A DNA stretch of 64,000 nt from Streptomyces sp. P9-A4 (GTDB taxonomy: Bacteria; Actinomycetota; Actinomycetes; Streptomycetales; Streptomycetaceae). The stretch spans positions 372,001-436,000 of the forward strand of contig NZ_JAZIFY010000001.1 in NCBI RefSeq assembly GCF_036634195.1, in the 5' to 3' direction. Of the stretch, positions 11,093 to 37,488 are shown in pieces. Positions within the stretch are counted from its first letter, which is position 1, and every line of letters begins with the position of its first letter. Both the position numbers and the translations under genes were made by a program. The notes under the pieces are model-generated. The model had not been told where the DNA came from, ran no database searches, and worked only from the letters and a program-made list of their open reading frames with translations.

Positions 11093-11594
11093 CGCGATTC
11101 CCGTCTGCGAAGAAGATGAGGGAGACGCTGGTATGGCCACCAGGACGCGGAGCGCCTGGCCCACAGCCGGATGACGCCCCCCGGATCGCTCGAATCTACA
11201 CAGATCGAACACAACAGCGTCACACTTCGAAGAACTTGGCCAGAATCAGCGCCCCTCCCGGCCGCCCTCCCGCATCGCCCGCTGCAGGGTGCCGTTCACC
11301 CGAGCACCCGGGTGCCGAACCTTCGCTGAGAAGACCACCTGCCCGCCGAAGTCACGGCGAGGCAAGATGAGCGGCCCGGCGTCCTCCAGGACCAACAGGA
11401 CCGCGCCGTGGTCGCACGTCACAACGCCTTGCCGTCCGGAACAGAGCCCGCGCGGCCATCAGGTCCCGCTCGGTCGGGGCGGCAGCACCTGCCCTTCGGA
11501 AGCCCCGATTCTCTTTCTGAAACGATCAGCAAGTCGGCGACACGGCCGGTGGCGACGGCCTTCTCCAGGGCGGGCGTGTCGAGGGTGGAAGCGG
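11093..11594 (-). other. gene-free stretch with two possible decayed coding fragments
   Basis: No intact gene. On the minus strand two short stretches look coding but lie in different frames and have no start. One is at 11515-11594, reading TPALEKAVATGRVADLLIV. The other is at 11246-11460, containing GAVLLVLEDAGPLILPRRDF and ending in TGA. Both have GC-rich third positions. They may be remnants of a gene that once followed the ATP-grasp gene. I do not recognise the family. Confidence 0.3.
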
Positions 11595-12857
11595 TCAGTC
11601 GGTCAGGGGGCGCGACCGCAGTTCGACCAGGGTGGGCGCGGCCTCCACGTCTGCCGTCACCTGCTCGTGGTCCTCGCCAACGGCGATGACGTAGCCGTAC
11701 CGGTTCATGTACGCCCGGGGCGGGAGGGCAAGCCGGGTTCCCGGGCCGGCCGTCGCGACCGCGCTGTGCACCGTGGGCCCGAAGAGGTCGGTCCGCACGG
11801 TCACGTCGACGACCTCGCAGTCGCTCTCCGGGTAGAGGAACCTGATGGCGGCGGTCTTCCGTGCCTTCGGCGCGGTGTCCGGGGCGAGTCCGGCGGCCAC
11901 GTGGGCGGCGGCGACGGCCGGATCGGTGCCGGTGGCGAGCATCCCGATGAGGGGGATGAAGTCGCCTCCCAGGCGCGCGTTGATCTCGACGAGGCGGGGC
12001 CCCTTGGGCGTGAGCTTGAACTCGGTGTGCGTGGCGCCGTGTTCGAAGCCGAGCGCCTTGTGGATGCGGTCCAGCTGGTCGAGGAGCTCGGGGTCGCCGA
12101 GGAGGAGGTCGGAGGCGTCCACGGTGTGGCCGGTCTCCTCGAAGTACGGGTCCATGCCGACCTGCTTGCGCGCCACGGTCATGGGGGTGCACACAGCGTC
12201 GGCCACGACCGCGTCGACGCTGATCTCGGGGCCGGTGAGGTACTCCTCCACCAGGACGTCCGCTTCGTAGCGGGGCACTCCGGGCCAGTTGGCGGAGCTG
12301 GCCGCCTCGAAGGCCGCTTCGACGGCGTCACCGTGGTCGGCCCTGACGACACCGAGGCTGCCGGCGAGGCCTCGGGCCTTGACCACCACGGGGTATCCGG
12401 TCGCGTCGGCCGCGCTGCGGGCCTCGGCAGCCGTGGAGACCGGGGTGCACGTCGGCTGCGGTACGTCGGCGGCCGTCAGCCGCGCCCGGGTGGTCGCCTT
12501 GTCGCGGCAGGCGAGCACCGCGTCGGGCGCGCTTCCGGGCAGGCCGAGGGCTTCGGCCAGCCGCGCGGCGGCGTGCACGAGGGACTCGTCGTAGGTGAAG
12601 ACCCCCGCGACGGGGAGCTGTTGCATGACCTTCTTCGCCTCGGCGAGGAGTTCGTCGAGGTTCTTGGTGTCGAGGAGCGAGGTCCCCTCCACGTACGGCA
12701 GTTGCCAGCTCGGCTCGTGTGCGTCGAGGAGCCACAGCCGGAAGTGACGGGCGACCGCCGCCACGATGTACTCCCGGTAGCGGCGGTCACCGCTGCCCAT
12801 GAGGAGCAGGACCGGTGCCTCGGTGGTGGACGAGTGAGGGTGGGACGTGGCGGCCAT
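11595..12857 (-). CDS. ATP-grasp domain carboxylate-amine ligase
   Basis: 420 aa. The N-terminal third is a Rossmann-like pre-ATP-grasp domain (VLLLMGSGDRRYREYIV). The ATP-grasp fold follows: YPVVVKARGLAGSLGVV with Lys160, the adenine-contact stretch VLVEEYLTGPEISVD (about 202-214), and the metal-binding LVEINARLGGDF with Glu291 and Asn293. Such enzymes activate a carboxylate as acyl phosphate and join it to an amine. The closest group by eye is the amino-acid/dipeptide ligase-like class (BacD-type), but the substrate cannot be read from sequence. The gene stands alone, with a 480-bp leader upstream and no biosynthetic neighbour. Confidence 0.85.
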   Translation of the reverse strand: MAATSHPHSSTTEAPVLLLMGSGDRRYREYIVAAVARHFRLWLLDAHEPSWQLPYVEGTSLLDTKNLDELLAEAKKVMQQLPVAGVFTYDESLVHAAARLAEALGLPGSAPDAVLACRDKATTRARLTAADVPQPTCTPVSTAAEARSAADATGYPVVVKARGLAGSLGVVRADHGDAVEAAFEAASSANWPGVPRYEADVLVEEYLTGPEISVDAVVADAVCTPMTVARKQVGMDPYFEETGHTVDASDLLLGDPELLDQLDRIHKALGFEHGATHTEFKLTPKGPRLVEINARLGGDFIPLIGMLATGTDPAVAAAHVAAGLAPDTAPKARKTAAIRFLYPESDCEVVDVTVRTDLFGPTVHSAVATAGPGTRLALPPRAYMNRYGYVIAVGEDHEQVTADVEAAPTLVELRSRPLTD

Positions 12858-13339
12858 GGTGGGAACCTTCGTGTTGACGTGTGGTCGGCGCCGGGGCCGG
12901 CCGACGGAGCGGGGTCAGAGCCCAGGTCGGCAGCAACGCGCTGTCGGCCAACGGCCGGAACCCTGCCAGCGTCAAGCGACGTATGTCAATGGATCGATGA
13001 ACGGCCGAGGGTCGACCTTCGCCGGCCGCCATCGCGGTCCGCCCCCGCCGCCCCGATTCGCCCATCTCCGGGCGCTCACACAAAGACCCGCCAGGCCGTG
13101 TGCATATGGCTTCGACCAGATGAGCCCAGGAATGCCAACAGACCCACCGACCCCAGCGGGCTCCGTCACCACAACCACGGCATGCCGCCGGGCCCGCGTG
13201 ACGCCCGAACGGAAGTCAATCGGCACTCATCGATGCTCTCAGAGAGGCAGGGCGCGGGCGAGTGGACTTCGGGGCGGGCGGGCTCTCCGCGTCGGCATGT
13301 CCGCGGAGGTCACCAAGATCCCCACTTGGACCGGAGCGG
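12858..13339. other. intergenic region upstream of the ATP-grasp gene
   Basis: 482 bp between the ATP-grasp start and the stop of the neighbouring arsR. Short open frames exist here on both strands, but none has a ribosome-binding site or a recognisable product. No clear hairpin or operator was found. It presumably carries the promoter of the ATP-grasp gene. Confidence 0.4.
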
Positions 13340-32727: not shown

Positions 32728-33051
32728 ATGACCGAGGAGACCACGGCCAGGGCAGGCAGAGAGTTCTACACGTTCGACGGCCGGATCCTGGAGGTCTTCG
32801 GCAGCTATCCGAAGCGGTTCCACATCCGGAACATGGACCTGCAGGTGACGGGCCCCGACCGAAAGGGTCGGCGGACCGTCGTGATCACCGAAGGTACGCC
32901 CGAAGCCCGGGCGACACAGCACACATGGCACCACTCGGCCGAGGAATGGCAGCGGGCGCAGGGCCTGGAGGCCTTGCTGGAAGCGGTACGGGCGGGTATC
33001 GCGACGGCCCGGGAGTACGGGCCTCAAGAGGTTTCCCGTAACTGTGACTGA
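32728..33051 (+). CDS. hypothetical protein of 107 aa preceding the oxygenase pair
   Basis: Not recognised. It begins MTEETTARAGREFYTFDGRI and has FHIRNMDLQVTGPDRKGRR followed by an Ala/Glu-rich helical end, suggesting a small beta domain plus a helix. No signal, membrane segment or Cys pair apart from the final residues. It ends 33 bp before the first oxygenase-like gene and points the same way, so it may belong to that operon. Confidence 0.6.
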   Translation: MTEETTARAGREFYTFDGRILEVFGSYPKRFHIRNMDLQVTGPDRKGRRTVVITEGTPEARATQHTWHHSAEEWQRAQGLEALLEAVRAGIATAREYGPQEVSRNCD

Positions 33052-33084
33052 CGACGTCCACACCCCTGTCAGGGACTCGATTTG

Positions 33085-34317
33085 ATGCACACAACAGAGC
33101 CGGCGGAAGCCTCCATCGAGGATGATGCGAGCAACATCTTGGTTGCGCCTTCGACGATGCAGGACAATGACTTGATCAGGGAGTTCTTCGGGAGTGCCAT
33201 CACGCCGGAGGACCTTGCTTCCGGTTCGCACAACCTCGCGCAGAAGACCGTCTACCTGTGTGGCGACGTATCCGGGATCAGCGTCCACCAACTACGTACG
33301 GCTGACCGGGTATTCGCCATCCGGGAACTGTCACACGGTTACCACGAGGGCGCCGAAGAACCCTGGACTCTCGTCGGTCTCGGCCAGGTTCCCCTCCGCG
33401 TACATGGCGTAGGCGTGTACTACCGCCGCTTCTTCGGACTCGACGCCGATCACTTCGGACGGATCCGTACGGAGCACACCTTCCAGTCCCTGACGGAGTC
33501 CACCAAACCCGGAACGGCCCACCGCAGCGGAATCTATCTGACGCCCGTCACACAGAACGATGACGAACTGCATTTCCGCCTGCTCCGTTGCTCCACGAAT
33601 CTCTCGGGGCCGACCGAGAGCTTCCGCCCGACCGACACGGCCATCGTCGAGGCCCTGAACCGCGAGGCCGCGGCCGTCTTCCGGAACCAGGCACCGCTGA
33701 ATCACGTTCTCGCCCAGATCTACCACAACACCCTTGCCACGACGGAGCGCAAACAGTCCAAGGCCAAGATCTCGGCCCACGCCGACAAGACCAAGGATAT
33801 GCCCGCCAACGGCATCATGGCCTTCTGCACCTTCTACGACCGGCTCGAAAAGCTGCGCCCCCTGACTGAAGACGCCTTCGACTACGGCGTGAAGAGCGCC
33901 AGCGGTCTGACCCGACTCCACTTCCGCCTCAAGGAGTCGACCCAAGAACGCGACGGGGCCGCGCTCCCCTCGCATTTCACCCTGACCCTCTACCCCGGCT
34001 CCGTCTTCTTCATGCCGTTGTCCACCAACCGCCTGTATACGCACGAAATCAGGCCCTCGACGTTGGACGCCGAGTTGCTTCCGACCCGCCTGGGATACGT
34101 GGTGCGCTGTTCGAGCGCGGAAGCCGTCCACAAGAACGGCCACACGTTCCTCAAAACGGGCGGAGATCTGGTGAAGCTGGGGCCACCCACCCCCGACGGC
34201 ATGAACGAGCTGCGCAGACTGTACGCCGAGGAGAACAGAACCTCGTCCTTCGTCGAATACGGCGACAAGTTTTCCTTCAGCATGAACACGGGAGACTACG
34301 TTGCCCCGCGAATCTAG
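33085..34317 (+). CDS. putative 2OG/Fe(II) AlkB-like oxygenase, long form
   Basis: 410 aa from ATG 33085 (a TTG is one codon earlier). The N-terminal ~200 residues are unlike anything I recognise. The C-terminal half shows a double-stranded beta-helix ligand set: His232-x-Asp234 (ISAHADKTKDMP), a distal His320 in VFFMPLSTNRLYTHEI and Arg341 in RLGYVVRCSS. This order matches AlkB-type 2-oxoglutarate/Fe(II) dioxygenases. Its neighbour carries the same set, so the two are likely paralogues acting together. The region is lower in GC than its surroundings, which suggests acquisition. Substrate unknown (nucleic acid, protein or small molecule). Confidence 0.7.
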   Translation: MHTTEPAEASIEDDASNILVAPSTMQDNDLIREFFGSAITPEDLASGSHNLAQKTVYLCGDVSGISVHQLRTADRVFAIRELSHGYHEGAEEPWTLVGLGQVPLRVHGVGVYYRRFFGLDADHFGRIRTEHTFQSLTESTKPGTAHRSGIYLTPVTQNDDELHFRLLRCSTNLSGPTESFRPTDTAIVEALNREAAAVFRNQAPLNHVLAQIYHNTLATTERKQSKAKISAHADKTKDMPANGIMAFCTFYDRLEKLRPLTEDAFDYGVKSASGLTRLHFRLKESTQERDGAALPSHFTLTLYPGSVFFMPLSTNRLYTHEIRPSTLDAELLPTRLGYVVRCSSAEAVHKNGHTFLKTGGDLVKLGPPTPDGMNELRRLYAEENRTSSFVEYGDKFSFSMNTGDYVAPRI

Positions 34318-35071
34318 GATCTCGGACGAGATCATCTCCTACGTTCTGCGAACCGAGGAGAATCTCTTCGCGGAGCTTTCCGCGTCGGCTCGACTGGAAG
34401 ACGTAGGCAAAGGCCGACGAGGCGCCGTCCTGGCCAAGGCCGACGAGGCGGGTGGCGTGCCTCTAGTACGTACTACCGCCCAATACACCAACCCGGCGCA
34501 GCGTTTCCGTGCGGTGCACGAGCGGCTCGGCCAACAGATCCAAGAACGTGCGGCGCTCCCGGTCGGCTTCAACAACGCCCTCATCGAGAGCTACACGAAC
34601 GCCTATACAACCATGGGCAGCCACTCCGACCAAGCCCTCGATCTGGCCATGGAATCATTCATCGCCGTACTCTCCTGCTACGAACACCCCGAAGCGGGCC
34701 CACCGAGGAAGCTCGTCTTCGAATCGAAGGGGCCCGATGGCGAGAAGTTCGAGATCCCCCTCACCCACAACGGTTTCGTAGCTTTCTCTGTCGCCTCGAA
34801 CAGGCGGCTCAGGCACAAAATAATATTGGACGCATCGGCCAGGACGACGGAGAACCAATGGCTGGGTGTCACCTTCCGAACATCAAACACCTTCGTCCGA
34901 TATCACGACGGACACGCATACCTCCCACAGCGCACGCGCCTCACGCCGGCCGACGATGAGCAGAGACGCGAGTTCTACCGACTCCGGCGCCGCGAGAACA
35001 ACGAAACGGACTTCACCTACCCCCCGCTGACGTACACGATCAGCGAGAGCGACCTCATGCCACCCGTCTGA
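34301..35071 (+). CDS. putative 2OG/Fe(II) AlkB-like oxygenase, short form
   Basis: 256 aa from a TTG start 7 nt after GGAG, overlapping the previous gene by 17 bp, so translation is coupled. The ligand set is complete: His108-x-Asp110 (TTMGSHSDQALDL), then SFIAVLSCYE, then His172 in NRRLRHKIIL and Arg193 in QWLGVTFRTS. FNNALIESYTNAYTTMG before the HxD matches the loop that precedes this motif in AlkB proteins. It lacks the 200-residue N-terminus of its partner. The AT-rich patch around 34815 (AAAATAATATT) is unusual for this chromosome. No substrate can be assigned. Confidence 0.72.
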   Translation: MPRESRISDEIISYVLRTEENLFAELSASARLEDVGKGRRGAVLAKADEAGGVPLVRTTAQYTNPAQRFRAVHERLGQQIQERAALPVGFNNALIESYTNAYTTMGSHSDQALDLAMESFIAVLSCYEHPEAGPPRKLVFESKGPDGEKFEIPLTHNGFVAFSVASNRRLRHKIILDASARTTENQWLGVTFRTSNTFVRYHDGHAYLPQRTRLTPADDEQRREFYRLRRRENNETDFTYPPLTYTISESDLMPPV

Positions 35072-35310
35072 CCGACATTCGGGCCGCTGACGGCATGGCG
35101 CTAGGGCATCGTGCAGCCCGGTCACAGAGCCCCCGAAAACCCGCTTGGCGGACCAATGCGGCCACTGCTACGTTTCCGGAGGCCGTGTGAGAGAACGAGG
35201 AGGTGGTACCCGTGAACGCAGTATCGACATGGGTGCTCCCCTCCGGGGTCACGGTCGGGCGGTAGGTCGTCCGGGAGCGCCGTACATGAGCTCTCCCGAA
35301 AGGCACGACC

Positions 35311-36281: not shown

Positions 36282-37038
36282 GGTGGCTGAGCCTGTCCGT
36301 GTACGCAGCTTGACCGACAAGGAGGGGCAGAAGCTGAAGCAGATCGTGCGCCGGGGCAGCACGGGTTCGGTGCGTTACCGGCGGGCGATGATGCTGCTCG
36401 CTTCGGCGGGCGGAAACCGGGTGGCCGGTGATCGCCCAACTGGTCCAGGCCCATGAGGACACCGTGCGCGACGTGATCCACCGGTTCAACGAGATCGGCC
36501 TGGTCTGCCTGGACCCTCAGTGGGCGGGAGGCCGTCCCCGCCTGCTCACCCCTGACGACGAGGACTTCGTCATCCGGACGGCCACCACCCGCCCCACCAG
36601 GCTCGGCCAGCCCTTCACCCACTGGTCGATCCGCAAACTCGCCGCCTACCTGCGGGAAGTGCACGGACGTGTCATCCGCATCGGCCGTGAAGCCTTCACG
36701 GTGCCTGCTCCGGCGCCGCGGCATCACCTTCCAACGCACCAAGACATGGAAGGAATCACCCGACCCTCATCGCGACGCCAGGCTCGACCGGATCGAGCAG
36801 GTTCTGGACCGCTTCCCGGACCGGGTCTTCGCCTTCGACGAGTTCGGGCCGTTGGGGATCCGGCCCACCGCAGGCTCCTGCTGGGCGAAGCAGGGCAAGC
36901 CAGACCGGCTGCCGGCGACCTACCGCCGCACCCACCGCGTCACCAGGCGTACTTGCCGCCCAACGCAAGGAACGCGCCCGCATCCGCAGCGAGAAGGGCA
37001 TCCGCTGGGGCGGTCGCCCCCTCAACGCCGCAGCCTGA
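36282..37038 (+). mobile_element. IS630-family transposase relic
   Basis: Four pieces lie in different frames: VRSLTDKEGQKLKQIVRRGS; VIAQLVQAHEDTVRDVIHRF with FTHWSIRKLAAYLREVHGRV; GITFQRTKTWKESPDPHRDA with RVFAFDEFGPLGIRP (first catalytic Asp region); and the family tail ERARIRSEKGIRWGGRPLN before TGA 37038. Frameshifts fall near 36420 and 36705, and an internal deletion near 36950 removes the rest of the DDE core. The left end near 36197 (TAGTGCTGTGACCGCG) resembles an IS630 terminus. Dead element. Confidence 0.85.
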
Positions 37039-37110
37039 CCGAGCGCGAACCGCAGCCGCGGAGTGCCGAAAGGGACAAGTTCACGAGAAGGACAGCGACA
37101 GAAGGACGAC

Positions 37111-37488
37111 TCAGGAGGCGGACGGCTCGATCTCCCCCGCAAAGACGATGACCTGGTCGATGAGGCTCCGCCGCAGATGGACGACGTCCGTTCCCGTCAG
37201 GCGGGGGCCGCCATCCGGCGTGGTGAAGACCCACTGGTACCGGGCCCACTCGTCAGGCATGTCCACCGCTGAGCAGCGCACCATCGTGCCGGTCCCCGCC
37301 GGGTGACGCCGGATGTCCAGCACGAACCGCTCGACCGCCGCGATTCCTTCGCTGCGACCCAACGGCCCCCAGAAGACCACGTCTGAGGTCAGGGCCTGGG
37401 AGAGCAGGGCAGTCACATAGCTGTCGTCCGAGGCGTTGAACGCGGAGATGAACGTGTCGATCGCGGAGCGTGCCGTCTCTTCCTGCAT
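37111..37488 (-). CDS. SnoaL-like / NTF2-fold protein
   Basis: 125 aa. Opens with a helix (ETARSAIDTFISAFNASDD), followed by SDVVFWGPLGRSEGIAAVERF and a C-terminal sheet (CSAVDMPDEWARYQWVF, DVVHLRRSLIDQVIVFAGEI). This is the cone-shaped NTF2 layout used by SnoaL cyclases, isomerases and many uncharacterised proteins. No diagnostic catalytic pair can be singled out. It follows the IS630 relic tail to tail. Confidence 0.78.
   Translation of the reverse strand: MQEETARSAIDTFISAFNASDDSYVTALLSQALTSDVVFWGPLGRSEGIAAVERFVLDIRRHPAGTGTMVRCSAVDMPDEWARYQWVFTTPDGGPRLTGTDVVHLRRSLIDQVIVFAGEIEPSAS

Follow-up and report, generated by a model that had tools for sequence, protein, structure and literature searches.

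The two overlapping genes P1 and P2, found in a stretch of 64,000 nucleotides from Streptomyces sp. P9-A4 (hereafter the window), probably encode a split AlkB-like Fe(II) oxygenase of two subunits, in which P1 would carry a canonical site and P2 a remodelled one, and which would be made together and be mobile. P1 and P2 would then be subunits of one enzyme, i.e. the split version of a two-domain chain of ~660 aa. The first-pass annotation had proposed a heteromeric or two-step modification system, and at the level of sequence that reading is strongly supported by the constant adjacency of the genes, the selected internal start of P2 and the existence of natural fusions. What is new here is the pair as one unit, its unlike sites, the selected start of P2, its mobility without neighbours and, in relatives, a covarying hairpin.

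P1 (33085..34317, forward strand) encodes an AlkB-like oxygenase of 410 aa that has an additional N-terminal part, and P2 (34301..35071, forward strand) encodes a 256-aa protein of the family PF13532 (2OG-FeII_Oxy_2) that starts with TTG. An alternative TTG start of P1 lies at 33082 (forward strand), and the sequence CAGGGA (33070..33075, same strand) may be the ribosome-binding site of P1. The 17-bp overlap (34301..34317, forward strand) includes the TTG of P2 at 34301-34303, and a Shine-Dalgarno-like GGGAG located within P1 (34290..34294, forward strand), six bases 5' of that TTG, would serve P2. The coordinates, the overlap and the TTG start were read in the sequence as they had been annotated initially, and the low-GC patch that had been remarked upon is real as well: the GC content of the pair is 61.7%, versus 72.3% for its flanks in the window, and it is below that of the flanks in 81/81 loci (means of 64.8% and 71.6%). 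A search for promoter and terminator patterns around the pair in the window yielded none. Species-representative genomes were scanned for relatives of P1, which gave 164 loci, the best 80 of which were kept. All 80 align with the window at the DNA level, and the homology usually extends over 33081..35073 (forward strand), that is, over the pair and almost nothing else; it begins between 33072 and 33169 (most commonly at 33081) and ends between 35056 and 35087 (at 35073 in 42/80 loci).

The family placement is more direct for P2 than for P1. P2 passes the curated cut-off of PF13532 (33.5 bits versus 31.2), with a match that starts at profile position 66 of 194, whereas P1 alone has no Pfam match and stays below the PF13532 cut-off. 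At E-values up to 1, PF13532 is matched by 51/64 rows of the P1 alignment (best 1.8e-4) and by 62/63 rows of fused proteins (see below). A profile comparison aligned residues 146-389 of P1 with residues 39-239 of P2 at a probability of 95%; the C-terminal part of P1 and P2 are paralogues, and the first-pass annotation had spoken of divergent paralogues. Against an alignment of 21 canonical AlkB proteins, the profile of P2 reached a probability of 93% (17% identity) and that of P1 a probability of 0.6%, and therefore the place of P1 in the superfamily rests on P2. The AlkB reading of the first-pass annotation thus holds directly for P2 and, for P1, by way of P2 and of the weak Pfam matches. Among solved structures, ALKBH2 was matched best by the P2 profile (E 0.003-0.04), followed by ALKBH3 (0.06-0.4), with unrelated chains appearing from 0.09 on. 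Neither protein had a significant match in NCBIfam, PADLOC or PHROGs; in the latter, P2 hit an alkylated-DNA-repair family at E 0.11. P1 does have an N-terminal part without likeness to P2, yet it comprises about 130-165 residues and not the ~200 aa estimated before: in the profile comparison the likeness to P2 sets in at residue 146, and direct matches start at residues 130-166 (E up to 1e-3, 27/80 loci), and judged by eye the AlkB-like part may begin even earlier, near residue 107. A convincing relative of this N-terminal part was not found in Pfam, NCBIfam or the PDB. For both genes dN/dS lies between 0.17 and 0.51 (12 chosen pairs).

P1 is followed by P2 in 80/80 of the best 80 loci. The overlap measures 17 bp in 98 out of 107 loci (some genomes being represented twice); the others have 29 bp (7 loci) or 8 bp (2 loci). 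P2 is in the +1 frame relative to P1 in 108/108 rows, the window included. Because of this constant frame, the overlap might be a site of programmed frameshifting, but this is made less likely by the NTG start codon of P2, which is selected and kept in 81/81 loci, and by the codon pair GG(A/G)GA(C/T) located 5' of it, likewise in 81/81 loci. The T of this NTG occupies the third position of a P1 codon, which encodes eight different residues, and codons ending on T make up 8.2% of P1 codons overall. The sequences, which come from loci related to one another, thereby provide strong evidence that the start codon of P2 is selected inside P1. P2 would initiate within the last codons of P1, from an internal and probably coupled start, and given this location both proteins would be made together and presumably in similar amounts. 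In 81 loci, the ORFs that lie no further than 6 kb from the pair and are 70 aa or longer were clustered, a procedure in which weakly similar neighbours would escape; no ORF family was recovered in more than 8/81 loci apart from P1, P2 and the frames overlying them.

The gene directly upstream of P1 in the window (32728-33051) encodes a 107-aa protein without a match in Pfam, NCBIfam, PHROGs or PADLOC. The first-pass annotation had raised the question whether it accompanies the pair, but it is not linked to it: a relative occurs in just 1/80 homologous loci, and the gene was rejected as a part of the system. Relatives of it are present in 6/101 Streptomyces genomes (own included), and the sole other genome among these six that carries P1 (G823) has the two on different contigs. 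In Embleya hyalina (L019) a relative lies near the pair, on the other strand. The start of an ORF at 36428-37306, 1.4 kb downstream of P2, matches HTH_32 and HTH_29, after which the frame seems to drift; it may be the remnant of a broken transposase. The segment 36194-36518 resembles another locus (L081, 82%). Some 3.4 kb upstream of the pair, the segment 28001-29719 is 90% identical to DNA of two other Streptomyces loci (L018 and L030, near 11500-13227), where the matching stretch lies ~3.5 kb downstream of the pair; the pair may therefore have entered the same chromosome region repeatedly.

The distribution of the pair is patchy. P1 was found in 25/295 Streptomyces genomes, own included, and in 3/396 genomes of the phylum, namely the own genome, that of a second Streptomyces and a third with a weak match of 55 residues, and P2 in 5/394 genomes of the class, again including the own genome and with one weak partial match among the five. 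In the tree of P1 the genera interleave, with 18 label changes versus a minimum of 6, where the well-supported branches force one change per group only. Among six genomes that were chosen for their close P1 genes, the DNA of P1 is closer than the recA and rpoB pieces in 15/15 pairs and that of P2 in 14/15; for instance, Streptomyces sp. ISL-87 and Embleya scabrispora share 95.3% in P1 and 95.7% in P2, versus 85.0% in recA and 87.4% in rpoB. The boundaries of similarity were compared for 11 chosen loci (55 pairs). In all pairs the similarity stops close to the last aligned codon of P2, at most 4 bases short of it and at most 29 bases past it. At the other end it starts 154-324 bases 5' of P1 in the 36 pairs without L003 or L004 (31 of them at 150-195) and just 19-55 bases before P1 in the 19 pairs that include either. 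The pair is located at most 1 Mb from a contig end in 7 of the 8 positive genomes with a contig of more than 6.8 Mb. The transfer that had been suspected from the base composition is supported by the likeness of P1 and P2 relative to recA and rpoB and by the boundaries of DNA similarity, and by these sequence criteria the unit moves between actinomycete genera without a conserved neighbour. A phage or plasmid was considered as its vehicle: no homologue was found in phage and viral collections, and three large records of a plasmid collection hold the pair, two of them without annotated genes in the stretch concerned; a fourth contains a weak match to P2 alone (25% identity).

The upstream regions of relatives fall into recognizable types. 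A conserved hairpin of 18-28 pairs precedes P1 in 23 of the 80 loci, which were selected by eye (L002, L005-L010, L012, L018, L021, L022, L030, L035, L038, L040, L047, L051, L054, L056, L057, L067, L069 and L072), and is absent upstream of P1 in the window itself. Folded alone, 5/5 hairpin loci gave z-scores between -3.6 and -7.5, and the upstream region of the window a z-score of -0.5. On the structure of L047, 28 cells are changed on both sides, versus 10.2 in shuffles, and 10 pairs versus 5.8; two of the 26 pairs of that structure are unpaired in 17 and 18 of the 23 rows, and an automatic consensus fold contains 17 pairs, 7 of which are changed on both sides. A model built from the 23 hairpins matches the coding strand 5' of P1 in 38/80 loci (15 of these loci are additional to the 23 and match more weakly, in some cases without having the hairpin) and has no match in the window. 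In the 295 Streptomyces genomes the model matched 18, namely 16 of the 25 genomes with P1, at a distance of at most 33 bases from it, and two genomes without P1 in which the matches are weak and partial. As the matches lie near P1 in 16/18 matched genomes, the hairpin goes with the unit and is not a scattered repeat; a dispersed repeat was also rejected in five leader-bearing genomes, where all matches of the 5'-arm pattern outside the locus have three mismatches. Leaders from five sources gave no Rfam match at the gathering score, and we regard the hairpin as a candidate leader RNA without an Rfam family. A conserved block upstream of it (TTGCCC...GAGCAT) resembles a promoter, and in a few loci this promoter-like block lies directly 5' of P1, as if the transcript were leaderless. 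A second type of upstream region, mostly from Actinomadura, carries blocks like TGATAATCT and/or ACCGTCCGG, and the promoter-like block almost abuts P1 in some of these loci (L011, L017, L023, L025, L028, L029, L031, L036, L039, L041 and L076). LexA-type boxes, sought with a simple pattern within 250 bases upstream in 81 loci, were not found.

Outside the split pairs, P1 and P2 occur as a single protein. A search designed to find fusions, for which P1 and P2 were joined into one query and hits were scored on the P2 part, returned 187 proteins at E-values up to 1e-3 out of 4019 candidates, and in 120/120 of the matches listed (of the 187) a P1 part is followed by a P2 part in one chain. Among these 120, 109 are at least 640 aa long and 108 extend back to residue 40 of P1 or earlier; identity ranges from 56 to 71% for P1 and from 56 to 73% for P2. 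The named sources include Nannocystis, Pseudonocardia, MAGs of Nannocystaceae, Polyangiaceae, Planctomycetaceae and Cyanobacteria, and the dinoflagellate Polarella glacialis, the record of which sits on a 155-kb contig; two further listed fusions come from eukaryote transcript collections, and contamination is possible in the MAG and transcript sources. Where the fusions have a name, it is hypothetical protein or AlkB / 2OG-Fe(II) oxygenase. A quick tree was built from 31 split and 52 fused rows. In it, split rows occupy one side of a branch with 100% SH-aLRT support and the three eukaryote rows group in one clade of six; with the root at the midpoint, derivation of the split form from the fused form is the simpler reading. 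Judged from these alignments, the split pair is two halves of one AlkB-like enzyme that is made elsewhere as a single chain of ~660 aa.

The spread bears on the possible substrate. A unit that travels among actinomycete genera without fixed neighbours would probably act on something that every cell has, and the presence in several phyla likewise suggests a substrate common to all cells, as does the fact that no partner genes accompany the pair in the actinomycete loci read. As the weakest step of this reading, we tentatively put forward such a substrate, perhaps a nucleic acid or nucleobase as in other AlkB proteins; the AlkB kinship would favour nucleic acid. The pair might also be a tailoring or small-metabolite enzyme pair, acting on a natural product or stress metabolite, as its hosts are rich in natural products and some other Fe/2OG enzymes tailor metabolites; the lack of a conserved neighbour within 6 kb and AlkB being the best family match nevertheless make this possible rather than probable.

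The residues that constitute the two sites are Q211, Y213, H232, D234, H320, R335 and R341 in P1 and E96, Y98, H108, D110, H172, W187 and R193 in P2; in E. coli AlkB, Asn120, Tyr122, Arg204 and Arg210 have known roles. They were followed in 64 rows each of P1 and P2, the window's own included, picked from 79 loci whose P1 differs by 10% or more, and all seven are invariant per half in 64/64 split rows and 62/62 distinct fused rows, including the iron-binding triad HxD...H of both halves. H232, D234, H320 and R341 of P1 and H108, D110, H172 and R193 of P2, of which the first-pass annotation had made its reading depend on conservation among homologues, are at the positions it gave, and being invariant in 64/64 aligned rows each they are not there by chance. 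It was right about these ligands; what escaped it is that in P2 the AlkB motif RxxxxxR begins with Trp, its first Arg being lost: P1 has R335 and R341, and P2 has W187 and R193, in 64/64 rows each, and in P2 WxxxxxR goes together with Glu at the usual Asn position in 64/64 split and 62/62 fused rows. A control search for PF13532 covered 198 genomes, and 30 of 51 listed places were read; two end before the motif, and the 28 other PF13532 matches that reach it all have both Arg, WxxxxxR being confined to P2. The Asn of N-x-Y is present in at least 90% of the 21 canonical AlkB rows but is not strict in canonical AlkB, as 4/30 PF13532 loci read have Cys there. By text pattern the Trp of P2 was read in 112/120 listed database homologues; the pattern failed to match in the other 8. 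An account of AlkB homologues (PMC544882) gives HxD, a His and RxxxxxR as their common features, with 2-oxoglutarate coordinated by the first Arg. On the basis of its residues, the site of P2 appears to have lost the usual grip on its 2-oxoglutarate cofactor, and the two sites may thereby be paired in an unusual chemistry.

With a complete AlkB-type site (iron triad and RxxxxxR), P1 would most likely be the 2-oxoglutarate-dependent catalyst, and P2 most likely a working iron site that lacks normal 2-oxoglutarate binding and acts on the same substrate. The main alternative for P2 is a silent, substrate-positioning role, in which it would bind the substrate or stabilise P1 like the inactive half of heterodimeric enzymes. 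The remodelled cosubstrate positions of P2 and the likely heteromer are compatible with this role, but in a silent half the triad would be expected to drift, and its invariance (64/64 and 62/62 rows) makes us consider it rather unlikely. We also judge it unlikely that both halves are ordinary 2-oxoglutarate dioxygenases that perform two successive oxidations, with a middle-strand Lys replacing the lost Arg of P2. The invariant iron triad of both halves agrees with such a scheme, and K143 of P2, invariant in 64/64 rows as is its fused counterpart in 62/62, could serve as the 2-oxoglutarate anchor in place of the lost Arg; K283 of P1, however, is equally invariant where the Arg is also kept, so the Lys need not be a replacement, and both Glu for Asn and Trp for Arg are fixed in P2. 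That the pair is a self-contained module for anti-phage defence or nucleic-acid modification, as its patchy occurrence (25/295 Streptomyces genomes), its movement between genera without a fixed neighbour and its AlkB likeness might suggest, is improbable given that none of P1, P2 and the 107-aa protein matched a PADLOC family (E up to 1), that no homologue was found in the phage and viral collections, and that the fused form in a dinoflagellate does not point to phage defence.

Extending the preferred reading of two subunits with a canonical and a remodelled site, one may imagine a new class of AlkB-derived enzymes with two unlike iron sites for one substrate, in which a 2-oxoglutarate-driven site passes its product to a 2-oxoglutarate-independent iron site, and which exists as a bare two-gene unit among actinomycetes, often with a structured leader RNA, and as a single chain in a dinoflagellate, with the unusual, modified dinoflagellate DNA as a conceivable substrate; we regard this extension as doubtful. 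In dinoflagellate DNA much of the thymine is replaced by 5-hydroxymethyluracil, according to a study that also notes AlkB relatives in dinoflagellate transcriptomes (PMC6680887), and a link between the fused protein and this modified DNA is speculation.

In the open literature searched, no paper was recognised as dealing with this pair. It would constitute a family of AlkB-type oxygenases that has a second, non-canonical site as a fixed feature, and in which identities of 56-73% connect this actinomycete to far groups, a dinoflagellate included, under names that at most read hypothetical, AlkB or 2OG-Fe(II) oxygenase. How an Fe/2OG fold loses its hold on the cosubstrate could be tested directly with the help of the natural fusion, the start inside P1 and the replacement of Arg by Trp, which is fixed. 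With the known AlkB/ALKBH proteins (PF13532; E. coli AlkB, human ALKBH2 and ALKBH3) the pair shares the HxD...H triad in P1 and P2 and RxxxxxR in P1. It differs from them in having two paired, unlike sites in one unit, in the Glu and Trp of P2 where AlkB has Asn and the first Arg, in the extra N-terminal part of P1 and in a C-terminal extension past the last Arg that is common to P1 and P2. The own genome carries one ordinary AlkB besides the pair (L112), which belongs to the same superfamily and has N-x-Y, HxD, H and RLNITLR; it has a single site, is encoded elsewhere in the genome, and P2 is distant from its group (17% identity). Closest are the single-chain P1-P2 proteins, whose P1 and P2 parts are 56-71% and 56-73% identical to the pair over the 120 listed and which have identical site residues in 62/62 aligned cases, but form one chain of ~660 aa where the pair has two overlapping genes.
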